Origin: a virus
Length of the DNA stretch: 51,529 bases
IMG/VR virus record: IMGVR_UViG_3300042895_002727
Location: 1-51,529 of that record
Strand: one strand, 5' to 3'
Part shown: positions 5,991-42,901 of the stretch, piece by piece
Numbering within the stretch: position 1 is the stretch's first letter
Layout: every line of letters starts with the position of its first letter
Made by a program: the position numbers and the translations under genes
The notes under the pieces: model-generated
The model's database searches: none
Told to the model about the DNA's origin: nothing
Seen by the model: the letters and a program-made list of their open reading frames with translations, nothing else

Positions 5991-7088
5991 CTATATTTTT
6001 TCCAAAATCACCCTAAAAGTGGCATCCCAATCTTCACCTCTTTTGTCTATCGTAAAATCCTTCAGCATCTCTAAATTGTGCTCTATTTCATCTCTTCTGA
6101 TTTGAGTTATCCTCAATTCATCAAAATGATAAATCCAGTCATCTGCCGTATAGGCAACTCTGCCAATACCCTTATCGGCTAGGTATTTGTACTCAGGAGA
6201 GTAAGAAGATATAAAGGGAACCCCAGCAGCTGCGTACTCAAGACCTTTAATGAACGACTTTGCATGATTAAAAGGGACATTGCTAAGTGGAACCATCCCT
6301 ATGTCGATTGGCTCAAACAGTTTCGGATAAGACATAATCGGAACTAATGGAGAGGTTCTTGTTATGTTGTCTGGTATCCCAAGTTGTTTATTGGCAAATG
6401 GAGCTCCGTTTAATGTGTGTCCAGAGTGATGAAAACCCATCTTTCTGCTCACTAGGTATTTACCTAAAAACGGCGAAAGTGTCTCCAGGTCGTTGGAACG
6501 CCACGGGGTCGCACCAACCCAGCCAAGTTTTAACCGATGGTTCATTCTTGGGGTTCGTGGTCTCCACCTATTAATATCAATCCCATTTCTAACCAGGAAT
6601 ACGTTGTCGCGCTTCTTTGCGTAATAATCAAAAAGAAACGGAGTTGATGTAATTACCGCATCAGCCCGCATGATTATTTCAGCATAAATTTCACGGTTAT
6701 TGTCTGGATTGTTTTTGGGGTCAGTTGCTGCATGTGCGCGATTGGTTACAGCCAAACCATCGAACCAGTCATCTATGTCGACAACTATTTTTTGACCAAG
6801 CTCCTTGGCTCGCGGCATCGCCTCCAAAACCGCACGCTGCATTAAAAGCTTGAAAACAATAATGTCCCAGCCGTGGACAGCCTTGTCTCCAGGTACAACC
6901 ATCCCAAATCCGCGTTGTGGATTGAAACCAGGGAAACCAACGGTAGTGAACCAGCCCCTTTTGTTTAGTTCGTCAGAAGGCAGTTTGCATCTATACCACG
7001 CACAGCCGTTTGGCTGAAGTGGGTCAGTCCCCCATGACCAGTCGCTGGTCAAGAAACCGATTGTTGGTTTTCGTTTTTTTGGAGCCAC
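5991..7088 (-). CDS. GT-B glycosyltransferase (GT4-like)
   Basis: 365 aa from a GTG at 7088. The C-terminal Rossmann domain begins LKLGWVGATPWRSNDL, the second-domain opening of GT-B enzymes. FIKGLEYAAAGVPFISS is the donor-binding helix equivalent to the E-x7-E region. The N-terminal domain contains IVVDIDDWFDGL, seen in phage and bacterial glycosyltransferases that follow a chain of conserved aspartates. First gene of the leftward sugar operon. Its GTG is preceded by TGC-TAAAGT and six bases, so translation is probably leaderless. Likely transfers a sugar to a phage or host surface molecule. Confidence 0.8.
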   Translation of the reverse strand: MAPKKRKPTIGFLTSDWSWGTDPLQPNGCAWYRCKLPSDELNKRGWFTTVGFPGFNPQRGFGMVVPGDKAVHGWDIIVFKLLMQRAVLEAMPRAKELGQKIVVDIDDWFDGLAVTNRAHAATDPKNNPDNNREIYAEIIMRADAVITSTPFLFDYYAKKRDNVFLVRNGIDINRWRPRTPRMNHRLKLGWVGATPWRSNDLETLSPFLGKYLVSRKMGFHHSGHTLNGAPFANKQLGIPDNITRTSPLVPIMSYPKLFEPIDIGMVPLSNVPFNHAKSFIKGLEYAAAGVPFISSYSPEYKYLADKGIGRVAYTADDWIYHFDELRITQIRRDEIEHNLEMLKDFTIDKRGEDWDATFRVILEKI

Positions 7089-14100: not shown

Positions 14101-14244
14101 AAAACAAGAATACTTGCTGGCTCTGGAGTGACACTTCTTGCAACACCTGGTGTTTATCTAAGAGCACGCTATTCATCTTGCACATTGGTCAAAACAGAAA
14201 ATGCAAACGAATGGTTTGTTATAGGTGACTTGGCGGCGTCATGA
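11185..14244 (+). CDS. Large tail-fibre protein with duplicated modules
   Basis: 1019 aa with AGGAG six bases before the ATG. An N-terminal ~150-residue domain (start AAYTRKQYSGAARNTTTTTL, then EANELVSKLTTKGDLLV) looks like a particle-binding head. Then come repeated shaft modules built around LGTDTTGNY-x-x-DLT-x-GTG-x-x-ITHTPGEGS, GDVSGSVLF and SGDVVVGGDLTVNGTTTTLNTETLLVEDNIVVLNSG, a combination familiar from long fibres of T4-like cyanophages. The last ~75 residues (LTVPSASVVAFGTGTSITVV to VIGDLAAS) match the C-terminus of the 258-aa protein at 22612-23388. Both are followed immediately by an FN3/Phe-Phe-Pro gene. Likely a receptor-binding fibre subunit. Confidence 0.8.
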   Translation: MAAYTRKQYSGAARNTTTTTLLTNVGTTVDIAATTGWPSIAGIPFYVVINPSSIYEEKCLATISGSTLTLVRAQDDTTASEHQIGSVIYPVFTANDADEANELVSKLTTKGDLLVTDGTNLLRLGVGAEGYFLKASSSASAGVEWASIPTINSLNDIGDVTISDVEEGDFLVYKNSASAWINETIHFITVSDTEPTDEIRVGDLWYNSSELELYTYYSGSWIQVTLTPEFPTVEELNNVYISTASTGDVLAFDGLDWYNDTVSNLLGSHIIALSGDVSGSVLFDSSASVNISTTIQPNSVTLGTDTTGNYVNDLTAGTGVTITHTPGEGSSPTVAIGQAVGTSSSVQFAAVTAPLIGNSSTATTLENARTISLGGDVTGSVSFNGSSDVSITATIQPNSVALGTDTTGNSDNVTEGTTNLYFTDGRARTALLADNAGTASGIRFIAPNTGTVELISHEATRFVRVTSNAAAGGGKTEIQGSAEILASSSISDPGHLTVAGSVTVGGGVVFEGATANDYETFLVATDPTADRTITLPNADGTVALAGSIALGTDTTGNYMSDLTQGTGITITHTPGEGSNATIAIGQAVATSSSVSFARLETSGDVVVGGDLTVNGTTTTLNTETLLVEDNIVVLNSGITGLPTLNSGIEVERGTSANVVMRWNESADRWDFTNDGTTYNNVLLLSEIGQDSLNDTVITSPLNRQSLVYDGTNWVNEFASTVTYARNAEANALSVGEVVYLFGAAGDLASVKRASNSSEATSSKTVGVVSVGADSGANVTVTTLGYVSGIALGSYTAGDALWLGSTPGTFTVTKPVAPAHTVFVGVVARANSGNGIMYVKCQNGYEIEELHNVKINGVSDGQFLRYNSASTVWVNDSINLGTDTVGDYMLNVSAGTGIAISHTQGEGSTASVSTTGVQSLSAKAGNYTLASGDAAETIIIMDSSSANDLTVPSASVVAFGTGTSITVVQRGTGKTRILAGSGVTLLATPGVYLRARYSSCTLVKTENANEWFVIGDLAAS

Positions 14245-15281
14245 TTCCTGGCAATCAGGCAAGTGGTGGGAAGTTTATCGACCCACCAAGCGAAGTAACT
14301 AGTGTTGTAGGTGCTGGCGGAACAGCAGACATAACAATCACCCATACTGGATATAAGGGCAAGTCTGGAATAGTTACATATCGCGTAACTGCGAGCAATG
14401 GAGTAACTGCAACAACTAGTTCCACAACGGTATCCATGCTGGCCGGACTCACCCCGGGAGAAACTTACACATTCTCTGCTGTTGCGATTGAGTCAACAAG
14501 TGCTACTGAATCAGTGGCGTCAGCATCTTCTAGTCCACTTGTTCTTGGTTCTGCACCTTCCGCTCCAGCAACACCAACAGTAACTCTTCCAAGCACTTAT
14601 GGAAATACAACGGCTTCTGTAGCCTGGATTGCGCCAGCCTCTGTTGGCTCTTCGATTACTGACTACACAGTTCAATACTCGTCAGACAGTGGTTCGACAT
14701 GGACGACGTTCAGCCGTGCCGCGTCGACAGCAACTTCCGTGACGGTTACCGGTTTGACAAACGGAACTGCATATGTATTCAGAGTGAATGCAATAAACGG
14801 AATTGGGACTGGAAGCTACTCGACTGCGTCTAGCTCAATCACTCCGTTGTTCGGCAAGGTTCCAACTCCGATTATTGGAGATATTGCAGAGACGGAAAGT
14901 TCAATTCCATGGTGTTACACCAACTACTTCACTGATGGCCTAGAGCAACCTGGCAACGGTGGAACCGCTACGTACAATTACTACGGATTCAATGTTGACG
15001 CGCCAAACGACCAATCTGGAAGTTGTCATGGATGGTTTGGTCTTGGTTATGACACAACTAGATACACATATGTATATGTTTCAAAACCAGGGTGGGCAAA
15101 CTCTGACGCTATCTACATATCAGAAACCACCAACCCAGCGCCGCCGTTCTTCCCGTTCTTCCCGTTCTTCCCGTTCTTCCCGTTCTTCCCGACCTTCGCA
15201 TGCCCTGACTGTCCAGGAATTGGACCATGTTGCCCTCCAGCTGGTTGCGGCGGGTTTAAGGACGGTTTTATATGTATCTAG
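14241..15281 (+). CDS. FN3 x2 protein with (FFP)5 tail and Cys-rich end
   Basis: 346 aa, starting within the previous stop (ATGA), so coupled to the fibre. Residues ~12-105 and ~108-205 are two fibronectin type III domains (LAGLTPGETYTFSAVA; VTGLTNGTAYVFRVNAING). A beta domain with CYTNYF, SGSCHGWFGLGYD and YVYVSKPGW follows. Then PAPP and five perfect FFP triplets lead to a short Cys-rich end (CPDCPGIGPCC, GCGGFKDGFICI). Probably a fibre-tip or capsid-surface adhesin. The FFP tail may bind membranes, drive assembly, or be modified by the phage's prolyl-hydroxylase-like enzymes. Two related proteins occur at 23392-24633 and 44797-45732. Confidence 0.75.
   Translation: MIPGNQASGGKFIDPPSEVTSVVGAGGTADITITHTGYKGKSGIVTYRVTASNGVTATTSSTTVSMLAGLTPGETYTFSAVAIESTSATESVASASSSPLVLGSAPSAPATPTVTLPSTYGNTTASVAWIAPASVGSSITDYTVQYSSDSGSTWTTFSRAASTATSVTVTGLTNGTAYVFRVNAINGIGTGSYSTASSSITPLFGKVPTPIIGDIAETESSIPWCYTNYFTDGLEQPGNGGTATYNYYGFNVDAPNDQSGSCHGWFGLGYDTTRYTYVYVSKPGWANSDAIYISETTNPAPPFFPFFPFFPFFPFFPTFACPDCPGIGPCCPPAGCGGFKDGFICI
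15147..15191 (+). repeat. Five perfect 9-bp repeats encoding FFP
   Basis: Five exact copies of ttcttcccg in frame. Perfect DNA identity means this array can expand or shrink by slippage without a frameshift. Confidence 0.9.
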
Positions 15282-23391: not shown

Positions 23392-24633
23392 ATGGAAGCA
23401 CTAAAAGATAGTGGCGGTAAAAAGCCAACGACACCGACAGATGTCGTTGCGACCAATACCGGCGCAGGCACAGTAGCTTCAATATCTTTTACCCCGTCTG
23501 AATATATTGGCAAAGACACAATTACCTATACGGTGACGTCTAGCCCTGGAGACGTTAGTGCTTCAGCATCTAGCTCACCAATAACACTCACAGGTCTTAC
23601 TTCTGGAACAACTTATACATTTTCTCTAGTAGCAAACACAAACTATGGAGTTCCATCCGACACTGTCACAACTGGGTCTGTTGCAATCGGCCAAAACCCA
23701 GGTGCACCAACAATTGGAACTGCTTCAATTGTCGCAAACGTCGATAGAGCAATTGATGTTCCATACACAGCTGGAACTGCAGGAACTGGTGTAACAACTT
23801 TTACCGCGACATCATCACCCGGTGGAATAACCGCAACTGGTTCTAGCCCAATTCGAGTTACCGGCCTAACTGCTGGAACCGCTTATACGTTTACCGTTAC
23901 TGCATCAAACCTATTTGGTTCAGCAACTTCTGGTTCTTCAAACTCAGTGACTGCAGGTAACGCTCCAACCGCTCCAACAATTGGTACCGCAGCAATAGTT
24001 CAAAACGTGGACAGAGCAATCGATGTCCCCTTCACTCCTGGTTCAGCTGGGACTGGTTCTCCAACTTATACGGTAACCACGACTCCAGGCAGCTTGACTT
24101 TTACTGGTACAAGTCCAATCAGAGCAACTGGGCTAACAGCTGGAACCGCTTATACATTCACCGTCAGTGCATCTACGACATACGGCTCTGCAACGTCAGT
24201 ATCATCAAACTCTGTTACTGCAGGAAATAGACCAGGAGCGCCAACGAGCGTTTCTGCTGCTGGCGGCAACGCGCAAGCAACTATTACATATACAAATGCC
24301 ACTGCTGGAACTGGTGCTACAACGCATACAACAGTTTCGTCCCCTGGTGGGGTTTCATCAACTGGGGCATCACCAGTCACCCTTACTGGTCTTAGCAACG
24401 GTACTTCTTATACGTTTACCGTAACGGCATCAAACGCGTATGGCTCGCAATCTGCAACTTCAGGTTCGGTTACACCAGTTGCCCCACCTTACTTTCCACC
24501 TTATTTTCCTCCATTCTTCCCGCCATTCTTCCCTCCATTTTTTCCACCTTTCTTCCCACCGTTTTTCCCACCGTTTTTCCCACCTTTCTTCCCACCGTTC
24601 TTCCCTCCGTCATTCTTTCCAGGATTTAAGTGA
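23392..24633 (+). CDS. FN3 x4 protein with (Y/F)FPP x10 tail
   Basis: 413 aa. Four fibronectin type III domains occupy ~8-100, ~103-190, ~191-280 and ~281-362, each with the GLTxGTxYTF strand. Domains 2 and 3 are close duplicates (NVDRAIDVP). Residues 367-406 are two YFPP and eight FFPP units, followed by SFFPGFK. Unlike the related protein at 14241 there is no Cys-rich end; the chain stops in the repeat. The DNA repeats differ at wobble bases, so the peptide pattern looks selected. The next gene, nine bases on, encodes a prolyl-hydroxylase-like enzyme, the suggestive placement behind the fibre-modification hypothesis. Confidence 0.75.
   Translation: MEALKDSGGKKPTTPTDVVATNTGAGTVASISFTPSEYIGKDTITYTVTSSPGDVSASASSSPITLTGLTSGTTYTFSLVANTNYGVPSDTVTTGSVAIGQNPGAPTIGTASIVANVDRAIDVPYTAGTAGTGVTTFTATSSPGGITATGSSPIRVTGLTAGTAYTFTVTASNLFGSATSGSSNSVTAGNAPTAPTIGTAAIVQNVDRAIDVPFTPGSAGTGSPTYTVTTTPGSLTFTGTSPIRATGLTAGTAYTFTVSASTTYGSATSVSSNSVTAGNRPGAPTSVSAAGGNAQATITYTNATAGTGATTHTTVSSPGGVSSTGASPVTLTGLSNGTSYTFTVTASNAYGSQSATSGSVTPVAPPYFPPYFPPFFPPFFPPFFPPFFPPFFPPFFPPFFPPFFPPSFFPGFK
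24490..24609 (+). repeat. Ten 12-bp units encoding YFPP/FFPP
   Basis: Two YFPP and eight FFPP units. Codons vary between ttc and ttt and among cca, cct and ccg from unit to unit, so the protein repeat is conserved while the DNA is not. Confidence 0.9.
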
Positions 24634-24642
24634 GCGCTGTAG

Positions 24643-25257
24643 ATGGATTCAGATTGGATTGATGTAGAGTCTCTTCCATTTTCAAACCCTGGAAACATAG
24701 TTATAAAAGAAAATTTTATTTCTGCGGAAAATGTAAAAAAAATATACGAATATTGCAAAAAAACAACTGAGTGGGGAACACAGAGCCCACTAGGTTCTGA
24801 CAGTATTCATACACATATTCAAATACAAAACAATTCTCCGCAGATACACCAGATACTGCAAAATTGTGTAAATGATGTTCAATATGAAATTGAATATCAT
24901 TTTGGTAGAGAACTCGAAAAAGCAAATCCAGGTTTAAGGAAATGGCATCCAGGCGAAAGACAAGACCTTCATGCTGACGGAGAAACCGCAGGTGGATGGC
25001 CTACATACAACTACATAGTTGATTATGGTTCAATTATGTATTTGAACGACAACTATGAGGGCGGAGAAATTTTTTTCCCAAAATATCACATAAAACTTAA
25101 ACCGAAACCTGGGACACTCATATTTTTCCCATCAAACAGAAATTACACTCACGGAGTTAACGAAATTATTTCTGGCGTGCGGTACACATCTGCCCATTTT
25201 TGGGTTCCAACAAAAAATAAAATGTTGGTTGACATGGCTAAAATTAATGAAATATAA
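24643..25257 (+). CDS. 2OG-Fe(II) oxygenase, prolyl-hydroxylase-like (group B)
   Basis: 204 aa. Double-stranded beta-helix with the iron triad His110-x-Asp112 (DLHADGE) and His170 (YTHGV). Arg180, ten residues later (SGVRYTS), would bind 2-oxoglutarate. YLNDNYEGGEIFFP and KPKPGTLIFFPS are the flanking strands typical of phage P4H-like enzymes. It would hydroxylate a substrate using O2, 2-oxoglutarate and Fe(II). First gene of the rightward accessory run, immediately after the FFPP-tailed FN3 gene. Confidence 0.88.
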   Translation: MDSDWIDVESLPFSNPGNIVIKENFISAENVKKIYEYCKKTTEWGTQSPLGSDSIHTHIQIQNNSPQIHQILQNCVNDVQYEIEYHFGRELEKANPGLRKWHPGERQDLHADGETAGGWPTYNYIVDYGSIMYLNDNYEGGEIFFPKYHIKLKPKPGTLIFFPSNRNYTHGVNEIISGVRYTSAHFWVPTKNKMLVDMAKINEI

Positions 25258-25996
25258 AAAAGCTTATTTTTTGCACATACCAAAAACATCCGGAATGAAG
25301 ATGCAGTACGACTTGTTAAATGCTGCTCGTAAATGCAAAAACAAAGTTAAGCCTTCTGTGTATTTGCCGGGCGAATTTGAATTTGTATTCAACCCAGATA
25401 CAGCCAAAACAAATGAAATAATCTGTGGACATTTCGGGAGAAATCCAATAGAAACAGTTAAAAACATTTTTTCATTTTCTATGATTCGTGAGCCATACGA
25501 ACAATACCTAAGCACATTAAAATACGCTGCGAGCTATACGAATCAACCGTTCACGGAAGATTTTCTTGATTTTTTTTTGACAGAGGGCAATGAAATGTTG
25601 TCTCAATTTGAGGGTATGTCCGGCTGCGAAAACCCTCAGTCTTGTTTTCTTTATTCAAAGACTTCATACCTCGCATTGCAAACTGCAAATCACGAAAAAG
25701 TTGTGTTTGTGGAAAAACCACAATCAATAGAAGATGTGATGAATAAAATTGAAAACATAATTATTGGAACTGTTGTAAATAGAGATTATTTTATCAATAT
25801 TTTAAATGCGTATTTGTATGATTTGTTTCAGATAAAAATAGAGAACAGCATTGAGATAGTAAATTCAACACCAAGACTAGATTTTAAGATAAGCAAAAAA
25901 CATAAAAATTTAATCATGTCAAAAATTTGGCTAGATTTTGAAATTTACAACATACTTTTTACTAAAGAACAAAAAAGAATTCTTGATGCACGATAA
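25247..25996 (+). CDS. Sulfotransferase-like protein
   Basis: 249 aa from the ATG at 25247, which overlaps the oxygenase stop and begins MKYKKAYFLHIPKTSG. HIPKTSG is the PAPS 5'-phosphosulfate loop of the Sulfotransfer_2 type family. FSMIREPYEQYLSTLKYA corresponds to the 3'-phosphate-binding motif (R-x-P-x-x-R/E-x-x-S). The ~100-residue C-terminus is AT-rich and poorly conserved. Likely transfers sulfate to a glycan or protein. Paralogue of the next gene. Base composition is more AT-rich than the fibre genes, suggesting separate acquisition. Confidence 0.7.
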   Translation: MKYKKAYFLHIPKTSGMKMQYDLLNAARKCKNKVKPSVYLPGEFEFVFNPDTAKTNEIICGHFGRNPIETVKNIFSFSMIREPYEQYLSTLKYAASYTNQPFTEDFLDFFLTEGNEMLSQFEGMSGCENPQSCFLYSKTSYLALQTANHEKVVFVEKPQSIEDVMNKIENIIIGTVVNRDYFINILNAYLYDLFQIKIENSIEIVNSTPRLDFKISKKHKNLIMSKIWLDFEIYNILFTKEQKRILDAR

Positions 25997-26747
25997 ATTT
26001 ATGAAGCGCTTGTACCACTTGCATATACCCAGAACTTCAGGAATGGGTATTTGCCACGCACTATGGAAAACATTTTACAATAATGGAATTGTTGATGTGT
26101 ATTTACCAGACGCACATGAATCACAGCTAATGTACGACGACGAAGGAATGAGAGACTTTCCTTTCATATCTGGACACTTTGCAAAAAATCCAATTGTTTA
26201 CAATAACGACGGCTTTGAAGTTTTCTCAATAGTCAGAGACCCAGTAGAGCATTTTGTGAGTATTGCGGCTTACGCATCAGTTGGCGCTGGTTTAAAAATG
26301 TCGAATGAATACATGGATGAGTTCATCTATGGGAACATGACACCCTTTGGGGTTAATGAGCTGTTTTCAAACTCTGGAAACATACAGTCAAAAATGTTGT
26401 TTTGCAGAATTGCATTTGTTGACAAGTCTCTTGTGTCGCTTAGTAATGACGATGTTCGGAATGATGAAAATATTGTTTTTATAGAAAATGACATGCCGGA
26501 CGAAGATGGGATAAAAGAGTTAATTGAATATATGAACTTGTTTTCGCTTCCTAAAAGATTAGAGGCAATTAGCTGGCTTGAGCAAAAATTAAAAAAATCA
26601 CATGGTTTTTCTTTGGATAAATCAATTTATAACACATTAAATTGTTCAAATAAAAATGGATTCAAACCAGATAAAAGCCACATAAAAGAAATAAAACGAC
26701 GTTCTGAGATAGACCAATATTTGTATGATTTGGTGCAGAAACGGTAA
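25986..26747 (+). CDS. Sulfotransferase-like protein, paralogue
   Basis: 253 aa from 25986; the ATG at 26001 (MKRLYHLHIPRTSG) is equally plausible and aligns better with the upstream paralogue. HIPRTSG is the PAPS loop with Arg replacing Lys. FPFISGHFAKNP matches the paralogue's IICGHFGRNP. FSIVRDPVEHFVSIAAYA is the 3'-phosphate motif. The Lys-to-Arg change in the loop could alter activity. Tandem duplication with the previous gene, overlapping by 11 bases. Confidence 0.68.
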   Translation: MHDKFMKRLYHLHIPRTSGMGICHALWKTFYNNGIVDVYLPDAHESQLMYDDEGMRDFPFISGHFAKNPIVYNNDGFEVFSIVRDPVEHFVSIAAYASVGAGLKMSNEYMDEFIYGNMTPFGVNELFSNSGNIQSKMLFCRIAFVDKSLVSLSNDDVRNDENIVFIENDMPDEDGIKELIEYMNLFSLPKRLEAISWLEQKLKKSHGFSLDKSIYNTLNCSNKNGFKPDKSHIKEIKRRSEIDQYLYDLVQKR

Positions 26748-26765: not shown

Positions 26766-27395
26766 ATGTCGGCAATTGAAAATTCACCATGGGAAATACC
26801 ACCGGGCCATTTTGGTAGCGGTCCAGAAAATATTCATATAATCGAAAATTTTATAGACCAAGAAGACCTAAACAAAATACAAAATTTTTGCCCAACTATA
26901 AACGAGTGGAACAATGAAGCAGAAAGCGTTTACTCGGAAGATGGAACATGTTTGTACAACGCTGATTATTGGAATGATAGACAGTGCAGCAGCGAAATCA
27001 TTCTTAGACTAAATCCTGATGTCCATAAAATAATAGATAAATATATACATAAAATGAAGAACACAATTGAAAATATTTTCAATGTACAGGTATCAGTCCG
27101 ACCACCCGTGATAATGAAGTGGCGACCCGGGATAGAGCAACGCCCGCATGCAGACAAACAGCTCAATGATGGAAGACCAAACGCTTTTGTAAATTACGAT
27201 ATAAACTCGTTATTTTATTACAACGATGATTTTGACGGTGGCGAACTTTATTATCCGCAACACGAAATCAGCGTTAAACCAAGACCAGGTTTAGCAGTAA
27301 TACACCCAGGAGATGTTAATTATTTGCATGGTGTGACCATGATTGAAAAAGGCTACAGGTATACAACGCCATCTTTTTATACTGTGGAGAAGTGA
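26766..27395 (+). CDS. 2OG-Fe(II) oxygenase, prolyl-hydroxylase-like (group B)
   Basis: 209 aa. Iron triad His128, Asp130 (RPHADKQ) and His188 (YLHGV), with Arg198 ten residues on (GYRYTTPSF). MKWRPGIEQRPHAD aligns with KWHPGERQDLHAD of the enzyme at 24643, showing these two are paralogues. YYNDDFDGGELYYP is the strand after the HxD. Stop and next start abut (TGA-GTG). Confidence 0.88.
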   Translation: MSAIENSPWEIPPGHFGSGPENIHIIENFIDQEDLNKIQNFCPTINEWNNEAESVYSEDGTCLYNADYWNDRQCSSEIILRLNPDVHKIIDKYIHKMKNTIENIFNVQVSVRPPVIMKWRPGIEQRPHADKQLNDGRPNAFVNYDINSLFYYNDDFDGGELYYPQHEISVKPRPGLAVIHPGDVNYLHGVTMIEKGYRYTTPSFYTVEK

Positions 27396-27929
27396 GTGAA
27401 AATATTCTATGAATTTAATTTTATTTCCGAGAAAGAACGCTCGTTAATTATTGAATTTGTAAATAAATATCCAGAAGTTGAAAATCACGCAAAAGACGAT
27501 GATTGCGTAAGGTATTACAGTAGTGATTATATTTTGTGTTTAGACGATTTTGTCTACGGTATTCTTTTTTCTATTTCCGAAAGGGTGCGAATTGCTGCTG
27601 AGGAAATGTTCGGTTTGAGTCTTGATTCCTGTGTGCCAAATTTGTTCAAAACGGAGGTCGGCCACAAACCGGAAGAGCATGCAGACAATGTCAACATGGA
27701 TGGCTCCCACAAGGATGGCTGTTCAAATTTTGTTGTTTCTTCGATTGTTTACTTTAATGATGATTTTTTAGGAGGAGAACTAGTTTTTCCAAAATTATCT
27801 ATTTCATACAAACCAATTGCTCGTAGCTGCGTGCTTTTCCCAAGCGGAATCGATTATTCGCACTATGTGGATAATGTAAAAAACGGCTATCGCTTGGTGT
27901 TGCCGCTCTGGTTTGAGGGTGTAGGATGA
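27396..27929 (+). CDS. 2OG-Fe(II) oxygenase, short group B member
   Basis: 177 aa from a GTG directly after the previous TGA, with GGAGAAG in the upstream coding end. Triad His95, Asp97 (EEHADNV) and His156 (DYSHYV), with Arg166 (GYRLVLPLW). YFNDDFLGGELVFP is the conserved strand. Shorter than its neighbours at the N-terminus but with a full catalytic core. Confidence 0.85.
   Translation: MKIFYEFNFISEKERSLIIEFVNKYPEVENHAKDDDCVRYYSSDYILCLDDFVYGILFSISERVRIAAEEMFGLSLDSCVPNLFKTEVGHKPEEHADNVNMDGSHKDGCSNFVVSSIVYFNDDFLGGELVFPKLSISYKPIARSCVLFPSGIDYSHYVDNVKNGYRLVLPLWFEGVG
27922..27927 (+). promoter_or_regulatory. Possible -10 (TAGGAT) or ribosome site
   Basis: TAGGAT six bases before the ATG at 27934 fits the leaderless pattern, but the AGGA inside it is also a usable Shine-Dalgarno at seven bases, so its role is ambiguous. 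Confidence 0.25.
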
Positions 27930-27933
27930 TTTC

Positions 27934-28668
27934 ATGAAAAACATTGAAGTAGAATATGTTGGCGACCCCAAAGCAGGTTTTCTAGTTTACAGAAATGTGC
28001 TTAGCGAGGATTTGAGAATCCCAGAGCGCCTCGAGGCGACTGTTGGGGGAAGCAGTACGCCACCATACTCATGGATGCAGGCGCTGGTTGGCGATGGTGA
28101 AGTAATGAAGGACTACAGAGATTGCGTGGACTGTAAAATAAGTCCAACACATCTTGAAAATTGTCCATCAGAATTTTCTGAATTAATAAATATATACAAC
28201 GATACCGTATATGGATTAACAGCCTGCCTTCAAGATTACGAAGCAAGATACAACTTGCGCATGGATTTTATGGAGGCAATTAATTATGTTAGATACAGGG
28301 AGGGGCAGCACTTCAGCATACACGCTGACCATGGTTTTTCTTACATATGCACAGTGTCTTCGGTTATGTATTTAAATGACGATTACGAGGGTGGAGAATT
28401 ATGGTTCCCATACCTTGACATAAAGTTCAAACCAACTTATGGCGACATAGTGATGTTCCCATCTACATACATTTATGCTCATGCATCTCTGCCTGTAACG
28501 AGGGGTACCAAATACGCAGCAGTTACAATGTTTGACTACAATGACAGATTCCATAAAATGTGGAAAGGTTACGGCAAAGACCTTGACGGGGAAAAAGCAA
28601 CATACGATAAGTCAAATGTTTTTTCAACATCTAGCGACATTGGGGAAAGGTTTATTTTTAAAAAATGA
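27934..28668 (+). CDS. Prolyl 4-hydroxylase-like 2OG oxygenase (group A, Lys type)
   Basis: 244 aa. Triad His130, Asp132 (SIHADHGF) and His183 (YAHASL). The 2-oxoglutarate residue, ten after the distal His, is Lys193 (GTKYAAV) rather than Arg. Authentic collagen-type and algal prolyl 4-hydroxylases have the same H-x9-K arrangement. Group A hallmarks are YRDCVDCK at ~61-68 and YLNDDYEGGELWFP. A ~45-residue C-terminal extension is unique to this copy. ATGA overlap with the DUF6065 gene that follows. Paralogues at 40038 and 41535 have the same type of partner. Confidence 0.88.
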   Translation: MKNIEVEYVGDPKAGFLVYRNVLSEDLRIPERLEATVGGSSTPPYSWMQALVGDGEVMKDYRDCVDCKISPTHLENCPSEFSELINIYNDTVYGLTACLQDYEARYNLRMDFMEAINYVRYREGQHFSIHADHGFSYICTVSSVMYLNDDYEGGELWFPYLDIKFKPTYGDIVMFPSTYIYAHASLPVTRGTKYAAVTMFDYNDRFHKMWKGYGKDLDGEKATYDKSNVFSTSSDIGERFIFKK

Positions 28669-29366
28669 CAAAGTTATTCCTTAAAAAAATGCACTCGAAA
28701 CCACCTGTTATAGAACAGTCTCGTATTAAAAGAGACTGGATGGATAACACCTACAATAAACACGCTTATCAGTGCCTGCCAATGACTGTTGCAAACGTCT
28801 ACGGATGGGAATTGCAAATGGAGGAAGACCTTGTTGTCCAGTGGGATGGAGGAAATACTCCTCCCGTTATTCTTTCTGGCGAGATATCTTCATCCGGTCG
28901 CGTTCAGGCTACATCTTCAATAATAGGAATGATTTCCATCCATATGGGGTGGGTCATTAATACTGAAGAAGGTTACAACACGTGGTTTTCAGGCTCTCCA
29001 AACTATTTTGTAGATGGAGCAATACCGCTCACTGCGACAATACCCAGCTACTGGTGGCCGGATGAATCTCAAATGAACTGGAAAATAACAAAAATTGGAG
29101 AGCCTGTAGTTTTTGAAGCAGGAAGTCCATTTTGTTTTTTTAATATTTACGATAATTCAATTCTGGAAAACACCGAAGTTATTGTTTCAAATTTCTGGGA
29201 CGATGCCGAGCTGGTGGATTCTAGAATGAAATATGGTGAACTCAAGGCGCGAAATGGTATTGAAAAACCATGGACTTGGACCAAAGGGATTCGTACAGGT
29301 CTTGACGCTGACGATAATCGGATAGGGCCGACATTCACTGGTCTGCCGAAATTGGCCAATCCGTAG
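28665..29366 (+). CDS. DUF6065-type protein
   Basis: 233 aa. IKRDWMDNTYNKHAYQCLPMTVAN and GWELQMEEDLVVQWDGG match the opening of the DUF6065 family found in phages and bacteria; function unknown. The homologous protein at 42197-42901 shares VKRDWMDETSGNHAYRCFPVTQAN. Overlaps the group-A hydroxylase by four bases. A beta-sandwich or cupin-like fold is likely from the strand pattern. The repeated pairing suggests it recognises or presents the hydroxylase substrate, which is inference. Confidence 0.7.
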   Translation: MTKLFLKKMHSKPPVIEQSRIKRDWMDNTYNKHAYQCLPMTVANVYGWELQMEEDLVVQWDGGNTPPVILSGEISSSGRVQATSSIIGMISIHMGWVINTEEGYNTWFSGSPNYFVDGAIPLTATIPSYWWPDESQMNWKITKIGEPVVFEAGSPFCFFNIYDNSILENTEVIVSNFWDDAELVDSRMKYGELKARNGIEKPWTWTKGIRTGLDADDNRIGPTFTGLPKLANP

Positions 29367-30519: not shown

Positions 30520-31270
30520 GTGGCTACGTACTGCAATGGTTACGCATCTGTTGAGTAATACTCCCATGCAGCGTGTTCTGGGGACGGAATCATCCTGGGA
30601 AGATATAACTAACGAGGTCTTTGAGTCAGCGCAAAAAGCAATTGATTGGCGAGCATCCTTGAACTTGAATATGTCAATCGCATCCAGGGGTACTTCGGAG
30701 GGGGTTTGGTATATGGATTTGCTCCTAAACCCACAGACTGGGTGGAGAGAGATAATGGCAAACATGCATAACTCGGTTGAGTTGTTTATGTCTGTCAAGA
30801 ATCCAGAAAAAATACTGTTTTTTAGTCCGGATTTGTGGAGTTCGCAATTCATAGAATTCTCTAAGAGAAAAAACATCAGCATAAATTTTGTTAACAATCA
30901 ATCTCTTTATAATTTTGAAACTTTTCTACGTGACCACTCCATGAGTATCGGTTCGGAAAGCCTTAGAGATACAAGTTATGGCGTTGTCGAGCCAGACGAG
31001 ATAGGCGACGGAGAGGCTTCCGGTTTTGACCTAATTCAAGTTATGGGCTGGGATGTTGCTTACGATATAGAGTTGCTTGAAAAATGCATTGGCTCCCTGT
31101 CTTCTGGCGGTGTGCTGCTGATAAACTCAACAAACAATTCCGGGAAGATTTACAGAGACGATTACAACCTGCACCCACTAAGTGATTTACACGAAGTGCT
31201 AAAGTTTTCAAATGGAAGCACATTTCACAACTCTGAAAGTTACGGATACACGGCTTTCGTTAAGGACTAA
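30509..31270 (+). CDS. Methyltransferase-like Rossmann protein
   Basis: 253 aa from the ATG at 30509 (MDNRWLRTAMV), which overlaps the previous stop. The second half has the shape of a class I methyltransferase C-terminal part: FDLIQVMGWDVAYDIELLEKCIGSLSSGGVLLINSTNNSG. Glycine motif I is not clear and the N-terminal half is divergent, so activity is uncertain. An O-methyltransferase for a small substrate is one option. Adjacent to the AspH-like gene, separated by one base. Confidence 0.45.
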   Translation: MDNRWLRTAMVTHLLSNTPMQRVLGTESSWEDITNEVFESAQKAIDWRASLNLNMSIASRGTSEGVWYMDLLLNPQTGWREIMANMHNSVELFMSVKNPEKILFFSPDLWSSQFIEFSKRKNISINFVNNQSLYNFETFLRDHSMSIGSESLRDTSYGVVEPDEIGDGEASGFDLIQVMGWDVAYDIELLEKCIGSLSSGGVLLINSTNNSGKIYRDDYNLHPLSDLHEVLKFSNGSTFHNSESYGYTAFVKD

Positions 31271-31271
31271 A

Positions 31272-31967
31272 ATGTCAATGGAGCCAGCATTCTGGGATGA
31301 TATTATTAGGGAAATCCCCGTATGCGTGGAGATTGAAAAAAATTGGCTCTCTATAAAAGACGAATTTAATTCCTATATGGAACATAGCCACCCATTCCCA
31401 ACCAGGGGTGGCGGCAACACTCTTGCGTCGCCAAAGCTCAAGATAAAATCAAACGAAAAAGAAGAAGAAGAAGAAATAGACCTTTATTCAGGGGTGTGGG
31501 ATGTTTGTTTTGCTGGGACAAGACCAAGCGCAGATAGCAGGCAGTGGGGAAATACCGAACTGCTGGGTAGCGTGGTTAAGTGGAAGACAAAAAAAGACCT
31601 AGAGGCACATCTTGATTACTCAAGTTCTTATTTTAAGACATTTAATTCAATAGTCTCAGAGTTTGCAGATGATGGACAGTGTTCTGGCGGAATGTTCAGC
31701 ATAGTGAAACCAGGGGCAATAATTAATCCACACAATGGTTCTGACAAAATAATGAGATGTCACTTATGCATTGTAAACGATAAACAATGCAAAATTACCG
31801 TTGGAAATGAGACCAGGACATGGGATGAGGGGAAAATTCTTGCGTTCAAGGATGGCCCGCCATACAGGCACTCTGTAATACACGAAGGAACAAATGACAG
31901 GGTGGTTTTAATATTTGATTTTGACCTAGAGTATCTACGCGATACGGTTGGTAGTGGGTACCTGTGA
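31272..31967 (+). CDS. Aspartyl/asparaginyl beta-hydroxylase-like oxygenase
   Basis: 231 aa from the ATG at 31272 after AAGGA. Strong match to the AspH catalytic domain: INPHNGSDKIMRCHLCIV (His154, Arg162), GNETRTWDEGKILAF and YRHSVIHEG (His200), then DRVVLIFDFD (Arg210). AspH enzymes bind Fe(II) with two His and no carboxylate, as here, and hydroxylate Asp/Asn in EGF-like or similar domains using 2-oxoglutarate. Residues ~62-71 are a run of acidic amino acids. Distinct lineage from the P4H-like neighbours. The stop overlaps the desaturase start (GTGA). Confidence 0.85.
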   Translation: MSMEPAFWDDIIREIPVCVEIEKNWLSIKDEFNSYMEHSHPFPTRGGGNTLASPKLKIKSNEKEEEEEIDLYSGVWDVCFAGTRPSADSRQWGNTELLGSVVKWKTKKDLEAHLDYSSSYFKTFNSIVSEFADDGQCSGGMFSIVKPGAIINPHNGSDKIMRCHLCIVNDKQCKITVGNETRTWDEGKILAFKDGPPYRHSVIHEGTNDRVVLIFDFDLEYLRDTVGSGYL

Positions 31968-39077: not shown

Positions 39078-39701
39078 TCAACCTACAAGAGACTTCACTG
39101 CCTCTATAACGGTCCATGAGGAGCCCGCTGCAAGCGGCTGTTCGGCAAGTGGGAGGTCGGCCCAGTTCAATCTCGCAACTTGCTGACCTTCTCTGCTAAC
39201 CATGAATTTCTCATAGTTGTGAGGTATGCGCATTATCGCTTGTCCAGCTAGGTTCTGCCCGGATGCAGCTTTATCTGAACCATCTGCCTTGCTGTCATCA
39301 AAAGCACGAACGGTGTCACCTTTTAGGAAACTCCATATTTTATGTTCGCCCGGACCGTTTACTTCAATTTTTTCTGTAATTGGGAAAGTCACAAATGGAT
39401 AGGCCTCTGATATGAATTGACTTATATCCTCATTGTCGGATGGTTCCATTTGGCCAAACTGATTGCACGGAAATCCCACAACGCTAAAACCTTTGTCTGA
39501 AAACATTTCATGAAGCTGCTGTAGCTCCCATAATTGTCTGGCAGCTCTTGCGTAAGACCAGATGGGGCTACATTTTGGGGTGTAGCCAGTCTTGGTGACG
39601 ATGTTCGTGAATAAGCAAACCTTGCCACGAACCGAGTCCATAACATCAAACGTTCCATCTACAGATTTTATCGGCATATCAAAAACTGACTTGATGCTCA
39701 T
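39078..39701 (-). CDS. Glutathione-peroxidase-like protein lacking the peroxidatic Cys
   Basis: 207 aa. Good GPx match (GFPCNQFGQMEPSDNEDI, PFVTFPITEKIEVNG, YEKFMVSREGQQVARL), but the peroxidatic position in TNIVTKTGYTPKC is Thr38, where the family has Cys or selenocysteine. Cys44 and Cys79 remain, with Gln81 in CNQF. There is a ~10-residue insertion (SPIWSYARAARQ) before the first helix. Probably not a standard peroxidase; a regulatory, structural or Cys44-based oxidoreductase role is possible. Overlaps the lipocalin-like gene upstream by four bases. Confidence 0.75.
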   Translation of the reverse strand: MSIKSVFDMPIKSVDGTFDVMDSVRGKVCLFTNIVTKTGYTPKCSPIWSYARAARQLWELQQLHEMFSDKGFSVVGFPCNQFGQMEPSDNEDISQFISEAYPFVTFPITEKIEVNGPGEHKIWSFLKGDTVRAFDDSKADGSDKAASGQNLAGQAIMRIPHNYEKFMVSREGQQVARLNWADLPLAEQPLAAGSSWTVIEAVKSLVG

Positions 39702-40037: not shown

Positions 40038-40751
40038 ATGAGTATTTATGATGAAAACGCAATTCCATGGTTCACAAAAGACAGGTCAGAGACTGCGTCA
40101 AATAGAATCCATCGAGCTGCCAGTGAAACAATTACAGCCCAAAATCCAGCACTAGGATTAAACATATACCAAAATACTTTTTCGCTTGAAGATTCAAATA
40201 GATACATCAAGATTCTTGAGTCAAATTTGTCCGGGAACAAAAAATACAGCTGGAACGAAGCCCAGGTAACAAATTCTAATATTCCGATAAAAAAAGCAAG
40301 AGACTGTTACGATTTCAAATACAAGCAAGAAAATCTAGGACCAAGAGACGAGCACAACTCCGAGCTTCTGGACCTTCATCAAGAGATATATGAAAAACTC
40401 AAGTTTTGCATTGATGACTATGCTAGATACTGGGGTATAAGTGTTGTTTACTATGAAGCTTTCAACTTCGTAAAATACGATGGCGAGGGTAAGCATTTCA
40501 ATATACATGCAGACCATGGACCGGCATACAATTGCACTGTTTCTGCCGTCATCTACATCAACGACGATTATGAGGGTGGAGAAATTGAATTCCCAAGACT
40601 TGACGGTTATGTGCACAAACCAAAAGTTGGGGATATTGCAATTTTTCCATCAAATTATATTTACGAGCATGCGTCACTTCCAATAAAATCTGGCATAAAG
40701 TACTGTGTAGTAGTCATGACCGACATAAATAAGCTAGGGCATAAACAATGA
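40038..40751 (+). CDS. Prolyl 4-hydroxylase-like 2OG oxygenase (group A, Lys type)
   Basis: 237 aa. Triad His157, Asp159 (NIHADHGP) and His211 (YEHASL). Lys221 (GIKYCVV), ten residues after the distal His, is the prolyl-4-hydroxylase type 2-oxoglutarate ligand. The group A hallmark RDCYDFKYK is at ~89-96, and YINDDYEGGEIEFP follows. A unique ~30-residue N-terminal extension precedes the core. Overlaps the next gene, a DUF6065-like protein, by four bases; it opens the rightward operon from the divergent promoter. Confidence 0.88.
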   Translation: MSIYDENAIPWFTKDRSETASNRIHRAASETITAQNPALGLNIYQNTFSLEDSNRYIKILESNLSGNKKYSWNEAQVTNSNIPIKKARDCYDFKYKQENLGPRDEHNSELLDLHQEIYEKLKFCIDDYARYWGISVVYYEAFNFVKYDGEGKHFNIHADHGPAYNCTVSAVIYINDDYEGGEIEFPRLDGYVHKPKVGDIAIFPSNYIYEHASLPIKSGIKYCVVVMTDINKLGHKQ

Positions 40752-41524
40752 GCGAGCAATACAACATCGCAATATTCAGACCACATAGACCATGGCTGGA
40801 CAAAGAAAATAAATACGCCCCATCAGCAGCACAAAGCGCCGCTCCACAATGGTATAAAGATGCTGACAGTTTTGAAAAAAATCTAAACGGGGAATACCGT
40901 AAAGCAACAAAAGAAATTTGTCCATTTCCAAAAGAAGGAACAACAGACGATTACGGTAAAATTCCGACATGGAAAGCCTGTCCTGCTATTCTGGACGCCT
41001 TTTTAACCGGATATGTTTTTAAAACTCCTTGCGACTTGACATTTTACAAAAACACTCAAGGTTTAATTGACGTCAAGGTAGAAAATAGTCAGTATAAAAA
41101 CTTCTGCACGCCAAGAACGCCGATGCCGGATTTCGTACATCCACAGGGTTATTACGACCACCATTTTGCATGGTTTGCTGACTGGGGCATAGAACTCCCA
41201 GAAGGTTATAGTGCCTTGTTTATGACGCCGATGAATAGGTTTGACCTTCCATTCTTGAACACAACAGGAATCGTTGACTCAGATAAGGTTCATTTACTGG
41301 GAAGTTTTCCGTTTTTCCTCATTGAGGGCTGGGAGGGCGTAATACCTGCTGGGACTCCCTATCTCCAGATTTTCCCGTTCAAAAGAGAAGACTGGGAACA
41401 CAAAGTGGAAATGTTGGGACAAGAAGAAATGCAGTCCAAATACATGAACAATGCAAGATTTTACCGCCAGCCCGATGGTGGGGTTTACAAAAACAAAATT
41501 TGGTCAAGAAGAAAATACAAGTAG
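40748..41524 (+). CDS. DUF6065-like phage protein
   Basis: 258 aa. Order of motifs: RPWLDKENKYAPSAAQSAAPQWYKD, TWKACPAILDAFLTGYVFKTPCDLTF, WGIELPEGYSALFMTPMNRFDLPF, TGIVDSDKVHLLGSFPFFL and VIPAGTPYLQIFPFKRE. This is a recurrent architecture in marine and freshwater phages, related to DUF6065; biochemical role unknown. It is longer and more divergent than the members at 28665 and 42197. Like them, it directly follows a group A hydroxylase with an ATGA overlap. Confidence 0.65.
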   Translation: MSEQYNIAIFRPHRPWLDKENKYAPSAAQSAAPQWYKDADSFEKNLNGEYRKATKEICPFPKEGTTDDYGKIPTWKACPAILDAFLTGYVFKTPCDLTFYKNTQGLIDVKVENSQYKNFCTPRTPMPDFVHPQGYYDHHFAWFADWGIELPEGYSALFMTPMNRFDLPFLNTTGIVDSDKVHLLGSFPFFLIEGWEGVIPAGTPYLQIFPFKREDWEHKVEMLGQEEMQSKYMNNARFYRQPDGGVYKNKIWSRRKYK

Positions 41525-41534
41525 GGCATTTCAA

Positions 41535-42200
41535 ATGCAAACATGGACAGAAAAAATCGATTTTGGGCATGGCATAAAGTGTTACAGAAATATAATCAAA
41601 TCGAGTTTTGATGTTATCAATAGAATTGAATCGAACCTAAAACCAGTCGGCGATACAACTGGTTATAGTTGGCAGCCAGCATATGTTGGATACCAAGAAT
41701 TAGTGCCAGAGTACAGAGACTGTGTTGATTTTAAATTTAAAAAAACAGATATTGAACACGACAAAAGCACTGTTAGCTTGAATTTACAATCGCTTTGGCA
41801 GGACATTTATGATTCCGCACTTCCGGCCGTCAGAGACTATCGCTCCGAACACAACATAGCGTCCCTCAAGTATTGGGAAGCAATGAATTTTGTTAAGTAT
41901 GGCCCAGGTCAGCACTTCAAAGAACACCAAGACCACGGATTCTCATATAACTGCACGGTCTCGTTGGTTGGATATGTCAACGACGATTACGAAGGCGGAG
42001 AGCTATTTTTTAGACTGCAAAATTTAAAAATAAAACCACAGGCAGGAGACCTTTATGTATTTCCGTCAAACTACATGTACCCACATCAAGCCATGCCGGT
42101 GACCGCAGGGACAAAGTACTCAATCGTAACCATGCTTGATTACAGCAAAAAATATCATACGCCAGATATGTACGACAGGAAATGGAATGATGAGAAATGA
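41535..42200 (+). CDS. Prolyl 4-hydroxylase-like 2OG oxygenase (group A, Lys type)
   Basis: 221 aa from the ATG at 41535 (MQTWTEKIDFGHG). Triad His131, Asp133 (EHQDHGFS) and His184 (YPHQAM), with Lys194 (GTKYSIV). RDCVDFKFKK at 61-70 and YVNDDYEGGELFFR mark group A. The shortest member, being just the catalytic core. Overlaps a DUF6065 gene by four bases, the same arrangement as at 27934. Confidence 0.88.
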   Translation: MQTWTEKIDFGHGIKCYRNIIKSSFDVINRIESNLKPVGDTTGYSWQPAYVGYQELVPEYRDCVDFKFKKTDIEHDKSTVSLNLQSLWQDIYDSALPAVRDYRSEHNIASLKYWEAMNFVKYGPGQHFKEHQDHGFSYNCTVSLVGYVNDDYEGGELFFRLQNLKIKPQAGDLYVFPSNYMYPHQAMPVTAGTKYSIVTMLDYSKKYHTPDMYDRKWNDEK

Positions 42201-42901
42201 TTGAAATTTCTGTTGAAAAAACAAACGGTTCAATTTTTGAAATCTCTCAGATGTCCGTAAAAAGAGACTGGATGGACGAAACATCAGGGAACCATGCGTA
42301 TAGGTGCTTCCCGGTCACGCAGGCGAATGTGGTCGGGTGGAGCCTCTCCTGTAAAGAAGACATAGTTTTCACATGGGACGGAATCAACGACCAGACCCCA
42401 GACCATATAAAAATAACAAGCCCTATTGATGCATATGCTGGCAGGGGTCAGTCTTCGATAAGTTTAAACACCGGACTAATTTTTAGAACCGCCGAAGACA
42501 TAAGTCTTTGGACAATCAATCCAGTCAATTATTTTAATAATGATTTTGAGACAATGTCCAACTTTATTAGCACGTCATTTTATGACCACCCGATACCTCT
42601 GGCAATAAAAGCAAAAAATGCCAATGCGGAGACACGAATAATAGCTGGAACACCAATTGCCACAATAATCCCTATATCGCTAACTGCTTTAAATAATTCG
42701 TCAATAAATATCACAACTTATTCGGACCCAGAAAACACAAGACTTAAAGCAAATTCGAGCTATGGGTACGCAGCGCAAAAACTTAATCGAGCTGGAGAGT
42801 TCACCGACTGGTACAGGGATGCAGTAAACGAGAAGAACGAATCCATAGGTTCGCACGAAGCAAAAGTGTTAAGATTATATGTGAATGACACAACAAAATA
42901 A
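42197..42901 (+). CDS. DUF6065-type protein
   Basis: 234 aa. VKRDWMDETSGNHAYRCFPVTQAN and GWSLSCKEDIVFTWDGIND are the family signature; close relative of the protein at 28665-29366. The middle ISLNTGLIFRT and PVNYF match that paralogue's MGWVIN and PNYF. C-terminal half divergent. Function unknown; coupled to the group A hydroxylase before it. Confidence 0.7.
   Translation: MIEISVEKTNGSIFEISQMSVKRDWMDETSGNHAYRCFPVTQANVVGWSLSCKEDIVFTWDGINDQTPDHIKITSPIDAYAGRGQSSISLNTGLIFRTAEDISLWTINPVNYFNNDFETMSNFISTSFYDHPIPLAIKAKNANAETRIIAGTPIATIIPISLTALNNSSINITTYSDPENTRLKANSSYGYAAQKLNRAGEFTDWYRDAVNEKNESIGSHEAKVLRLYVNDTTK

Follow-up and report, generated by a model that had tools for sequence, protein, structure and literature searches.

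Does a phage gene that ends in a long proline-rich repeat stand beside the enzyme that modifies it? The window (the whole stretch of viral DNA analysed here, 51,529 nt) raises this question through two neighbouring genes:

23392..24633 (+), FN3-repeat fibre-like protein of 413 aa with a C-terminal FFPP tail, the proposed substrate (Pfam fn3, 1e-17)
24490..24609 (+), (YFPP)2(FFPP)8 repeat within that gene, then SFFPGFK and the stop codon (sequence; codon-position bias)
24643..25257 (+), 2OG-Fe(II) oxygenase of 204 aa with HAD..H..R and a predicted prolyl-hydroxylase fold (PF13640 3.8e-8, over cut-off)

A sequence-only reading had proposed that the tail is a substrate of the adjacent enzyme and that the resulting hydroxyproline could then be glycosylated.

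The FFPP tail and the adjacent oxygenase

The coordinates, the ten YFPP/FFPP units and the 9-nt spacing of that reading proved right. The fibre-like protein ends, on translation, in VTPVAPP-(YFPP)2-(FFPP)8-SFFPGFK, and 9 nt separate its stop codon from the oxygenase ORF, which shares its reading frame but is preceded by a TGA and a TAG. Among the 121 pairwise base differences between the ten repeat units, 0, 16 and 105 fall at codon positions 1, 2 and 3, respectively, and those at position 2 are F/Y changes only; the peptide is thus conserved while the DNA drifts. These results demonstrate that the FFPP repeat is real coding sequence whose peptide is under selection. The gene lies two genes downstream of a homologue of a cyanophage virion structural protein whose cyanophage counterpart adjoins a baseplate wedge gene, and in other phages fibre-like genes follow FFPP carriers with PASTA-like domains. 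FFPP proteins are therefore likely to be virion fibre components, and we infer that they are incorporated into the virion. The window protein was also tested as a member of the S74-chaperone tail-fibre class, and it contains no Peptidase_S74 domain.

The description of the next gene as P4H-like also held up. Residues H110, D112, H170 and R180 of the 24643 protein (i.e., an intact HxD..H plus a basic residue) are invariant in 61 aligned sequences, which marks it as a 2OG-Fe(II) oxygenase with its predicted iron- and 2-oxoglutarate-binding residues intact. Its AlphaFold2 model (pLDDT 88.8) adopts a double-stranded beta-helix fold that aligns over 160-179 residues with PHD2, P3H1 and P4H (Z 16-17.7). 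The VIA Z scores were 17.7 for P3H1, 17.2 for PHD2 and 17.1 for the Pseudomonas putida P4H (4iw3), and the PBCV-1 P4H was also among the matches. Since the non-prolyl enzyme PiuC follows closely (Z 16.1), the fold is supportive rather than decisive; neither the fold nor the motifs determine which substrate is used.

With about 12 oxygenase-like stretches encoded in the window, adjacency by itself is weak evidence, and we rejected it as the sole basis for a link. The features that accompany the pair are as follows:

25229..25996 (+), sulfotransferase-like protein 1 with P-loop HIPKTSG (profile against PDB: heparan sulfate 6-O-sulfotransferase 3, E 3e-6)
25938..26747 (+), sulfotransferase-like protein 2 with HIPRTSG (same profile as 25229)
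26766..27395 (+), 2OG-Fe(II) oxygenase with HAD..H..R (PF13640 6e-5, below curated cut-off; motif)
27396..27929 (+), 2OG-Fe(II) oxygenase (PF13640 3.8e-9)
27934..28668 (+), 2OG-Fe(II) oxygenase with HAD..H..K, the most general FFPP companion (PF13640 6.8e-12)
28665..29366 (+), DUF6065 protein with a predicted dUTPase-like (beta-clip) fold (PF19541 2.5e-43, 148.7 bits against a cut-off of 26.6)
40038..40751 (+), 2OG-Fe(II) oxygenase (PF13640)
41451..42200 (+), 2OG-Fe(II) oxygenase with HQD..H..K, in a second oxygenase and DUF6065 pair (PF13640 5.2e-15; motif)
42197..42901 (+), second DUF6065 protein (PF19541 4.5e-26, 86.4 bits)

The second oxygenase and DUF6065 pair (41451-42901) is more distant in sequence than the first, which lies 3.3 kb from the FFPP gene. 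Judged by motif, the 2-oxoglutarate-binding position is K in 27934 and 41451 (as in collagen P4H) and R in 24643 and 26766 (as in PHD2). A phmmer search with 27934 gave the Bacillus P4H 3itq as best match (3.4e-6), and LH3 at 3e-5. The window additionally encodes a PF05118 aspartyl/asparaginyl beta-hydroxylase at 31212-31967, from another peptide-hydroxylase-type family, and glutathione-peroxidase-like genes recur in or near oxygenase cassettes (39078-39701 (-) and 1107-1994 in the window; L039:7012-7590 and L185:1860-2462 in relatives).

Co-occurrence of FFPP tails with the oxygenase/DUF6065 cassette

Dozens of IMG/VR relatives share the arrangement of a tail followed by an oxygenase, in some cases with one or two other genes in between. 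Of 66 informative representatives, 28 have their first downstream oxygenase immediately after the FFPP gene and 36 have it within two genes, while none of 95 control genes upstream of FFPP has an oxygenase within two genes. The FFPP gene thus marks the 5' border of the oxygenase cassette. For PASTA-like carriers, the distance to the nearest oxygenase is 0.75-3.9 kb. Relatives of 40038 sit directly behind FN3-FFPP(-Hint) genes elsewhere (tree neighbours L170, L189, L183, L126 and L115). The oxygenases that adjoin FFPP belong to different subfamilies in different phages, with 16 changes inferred on the tree for 25 adjacent proteins, and the idea of one dedicated adjacent enzyme was consequently unsupported.

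Because the cassettes are rich in oxygenases, we tested whole records. The FFPP-minus set consisted of relatives of the window virion protein 19844 (best 80 relatives per query), and the absence of FFPP was checked along each entire record; most viral records compared are fragments. PF13640 was found in 37 of 43 FFPP-positive records (median 7 copies) versus 12 of 37 FFPP-minus relatives (mostly 1-3 copies). DUF6065 exceeded its cut-off in 34 of 43 FFPP-positive records and in none of the 37 FFPP-negative ones, and a 27934 orthologue (E<=1e-20) was present in 36 of the 43. In the reverse direction, 30 phage records were picked by DUF6065 and length with FFPP disregarded (25 clusters overall), and 28 of them carried FFPP on the same strand. 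Fisher tests gave values of 2e-14 and 7e-17, which ignore phylogeny and are not to be taken at face value. Where the cassette occurs without FFPP (L278, L279, L281, L283 and L285), the gene right before the oxygenases carries FF(S/A/G)PP variant repeats. Three FFPP-positive records without PF13640 (L094, L143 and L204; 37-53 kb) have internal FFPP only and may be fragments.

Co-occurrence in both directions identifies the 27934-type oxygenase and DUF6065 (28665) as the best-linked partners of the tail, rather than 24643 specifically. The proposed link between FFPP and a hydroxylase was therefore strengthened, with a change of principal partner from the adjacent enzyme to the 27934-type enzyme with DUF6065. 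DUF6065 usually stands immediately downstream of a 27934-type oxygenase. An oxygenase lies directly upstream of 39 of 53 non-redundant DUF6065 genes, and the best reading of 24643-like genes is that they are lineage-specific additions to the 27934 and DUF6065 pair. An independent-pairs test on the anchor protein had no power, as FFPP changes just twice on its tree. As this tree is unable to establish independence, the argument for it relies on the differing carriers and oxygenase clades. We consider it highly probable that FFPP and the oxygenase/DUF6065 cassette are functionally linked.

FFPP tails on unrelated carriers

A four-unit FFPP search found at least 120 stretches in IMG/VR viral contigs, while a looser three-unit pattern found just 13 in 257 Gb of prokaryote genomes, several of them without a repeat-bearing reading frame. 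A bacterial origin of FFPP was rejected on these grounds; FFPP tails are a phage trait. The de-replicated set comprised 101 representatives, a few bacterial or chance matches included. IMG/VR relatives of the FN3-FFPP protein keep the tail, mostly with an xFK end, and vary in length with the number of FN3 repeats. The FK end is present in 35 of the 44 representatives whose tail lies <=12 residues from the C-terminus. The aromatic slot of the repeat varies between F, Y, H and W, and proline makes up half of the repeat.

The carriers are unrelated to one another: they include FN3 proteins, proteins with PASTA-like domains (Pfam calls no domain in the PASTA-like carriers L137 and L217), proteins with weak Hint/intein-like C-termini, proteins with Cys-rich ends and one Peptidase_S74 protein. 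In this last carrier (L120:1082-1762 (-)), the sole Pfam S74 match, the S74 domain begins at residue 123, exactly after FFPPAFK; the S74 start motif is also present in L146 and L171. Autocleavage by S74 domains is known in other fibres, and cleavage in L120 would recreate the usual xFK end. A Hint/intein-like C-terminal domain follows the FFPP or FFxPP region in L149, L139, L167, L170, L189, L129 and L278, with Pfam Hint matches below the curated cut-offs in four of these; such a domain could process the carrier protein.

A second FN3 protein in the window is another possible substrate:

14241..15281 (+), FN3 protein with a FFPFFPFFPFFPFFP linker (translation; Pfam fn3)

Its orthologues carry SPPPSPPP (extensin-like), PTPT/PTPTPT or poly-Pro at the position of the FFPFFPFFPFFPFFP linker.

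Neither FFPP (tblastn with the FN3-FFPP protein, blastn with the tail) nor DUF6065 was found among the cultured phages of INPHARED, so the system is currently without an isolate, with the proviso that the low-complexity filter could hide FFPP. Literature searches on the FFPP motif and on DUF6065 returned no relevant paper. Kyanoviridae share virion protein 19844 at ~44% identity, and cyanophage 2OG-Fe(II) oxygenases (PHROG_61; PMC3037559, PMC12774648) belong to the same superfamily as those of the window, with a phrog_61 match at 1.3e-24; however, cyanophages showed no FFPP tail and no DUF6065 in INPHARED.

Other known systems resemble parts of this one. Phage collagen-like tail fibres likewise place a proline-rich low-complexity stretch in a trimeric fibre, and many fibres have an S74 chaperone as L120 does, but FFPP is not Gly-X-Y and we saw no sign of a triple helix. 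The Bacillus anthracis P4H (3itq, 5hv0; best sequence match, 1e-5) and the P. putida P4H that acts on EF-Tu are bacterial 2OG prolyl hydroxylases, although both are cellular enzymes with other substrates. The chlorovirus enzyme PBCV-1 vCPH (5c5t) is a virus-encoded protein of prolyl-hydroxylase fold whose presumed targets are proline-rich viral proteins; PBCV-1, however, is a eukaryotic virus, and the sequence match is weak (0.047). Chlorovirus repeats are collagen- or PAPK-like, not FFPP, and we know of no DUF6065 partner of vCPH.

Candidate chemistry of the tail

We hypothesized that a fibre-like protein of the phage virion would carry the FFPP tail at its C-terminus and that phage 2OG-Fe(II) oxygenases of prolyl-hydroxylase fold would hydroxylate the repeat, most likely at proline, before or during virion assembly. 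The general actor would be the 27934-type enzyme with DUF6065, which subfamily-specific enzymes such as 24643 would join. This is the best explanation of the data, and we put the chances that it is right at about even; substrate, residue and the order of steps are our deductions. Counting against it, the 6-13 oxygenases exceed the needs of one repeat, three FFPP-positive records (possibly fragments) lack PF13640, and the oxygenases stand at some distance from PASTA-like carriers.

As to a subsequent step, the proposed glycosylation found no specific support near the tail, where the cassette instead has sulfotransferase-like genes. The profile of these proteins aligns with HS6ST3 over residues 12-104, Pfam matches no family in 25229 or 25938, and the genes are conserved in the cassette. 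A sulfotransferase-like domain is naturally fused to a 2OG-oxygenase domain in L032:2823-4298 and in L053; Pfam does not call the sulfotransferase half, and the oxygenase domain may be inactive because HTN stands where HxD is expected. Given the HS6ST-like genes, sulfation and glycosylation would be equally plausible second steps, and some phages may use a sulfotransferase-like enzyme to modify the hydroxyls so formed; support for sulfation of FFPP tails is circumstantial. A glycosyltransferase gene (phrog_7162) lies at 5991-7088 (-), far from the FFPP cassette.

The oxygenases might instead act on FFPP fibres by other chemistry, with Phe, Tyr or other side chains, the lysine of xFK or fibre glycans as targets and with DUF6065 and the sulfotransferases in a pathway of glycan or side-chain decoration. 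The many oxygenase copies per genome, the conserved FK end, the PF05118 Asp/Arg-hydroxylase at 31212, the resemblance of the sulfotransferase-like proteins to carbohydrate (heparan sulfate) sulfotransferases and that of 27934 to the lysyl hydroxylase LH3 would all fit. However, 24643 and 27934 find their closest counterparts, in structure and in sequence, mainly among prolyl hydroxylases, and proline is the constant half of a repeat whose aromatic slot varies, and we regard such chemistry as rather unlikely.

A little less probable still is that tail and cassette merely share a lineage, as a cargo island in one large freshwater-type phage group in which the structural module finishes with the fibre gene and the oxygenases serve metabolism (e.g., 2-oxoglutarate or nitrogen status) or act on host glycans. 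Cyanophages carry 2OG oxygenases without FFPP, for which a 2OG-modulating role has been proposed (PMC3037559); the occurrence of just two changes in FFPP on the anchor tree and the GPx-like genes among the cassette genes also suit this account. Yet the link holds on FN3 and PASTA-like carriers, which are unrelated and stand in different gene contexts, oxygenases of different clades adjoin FFPP, DUF6065 is absent from the FFPP-minus relatives, and FFSPP variants behave like FFPP.

That the oxygenases and DUF6065 modify phage nucleotides is very improbable: some 2OG oxygenases (TET/JBP) modify bases and the DUF6065 model (AF2 pLDDT 87.7) is closest to dUTPases (VIA Z 10.9, 2.8-4.3 A over ~120 residues), but the conserved residues of DUF6065 (R23, W25, M26, H33, A34, Y35, C37, P39, N44 and G47) were not matched to dUTPase motifs in a limited comparison, P4H is a far better match to the oxygenases than TET is (E 1e-5 versus 0.06), and such a role leaves the association with FFPP unexplained.

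Returning to hydroxylation of the fibre tail, a more ambitious form of this hypothesis, which we advance tentatively, is a dedicated and widespread virion modification system. Here 27934-type enzymes would hydroxylate the prolines of a modular FFPP(n)-xFK tail on unrelated carriers; DUF6065 would be their essential partner, either substrate-binding or trimer-specific, and the tail would sometimes be sulfated. Phage 2OG oxygenases are common, yet what their substrates are "remains cryptic" (PMC9301287). Since the repeat on one side and one oxygenase plus one DUF on the other predict each other, the repeat offers a concrete candidate substrate, and it provides a first functional context for DUF6065. 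If the hypothesis holds, certain phages alter the chemistry of their own fibre tips, and host recognition and fibre stability could be affected.
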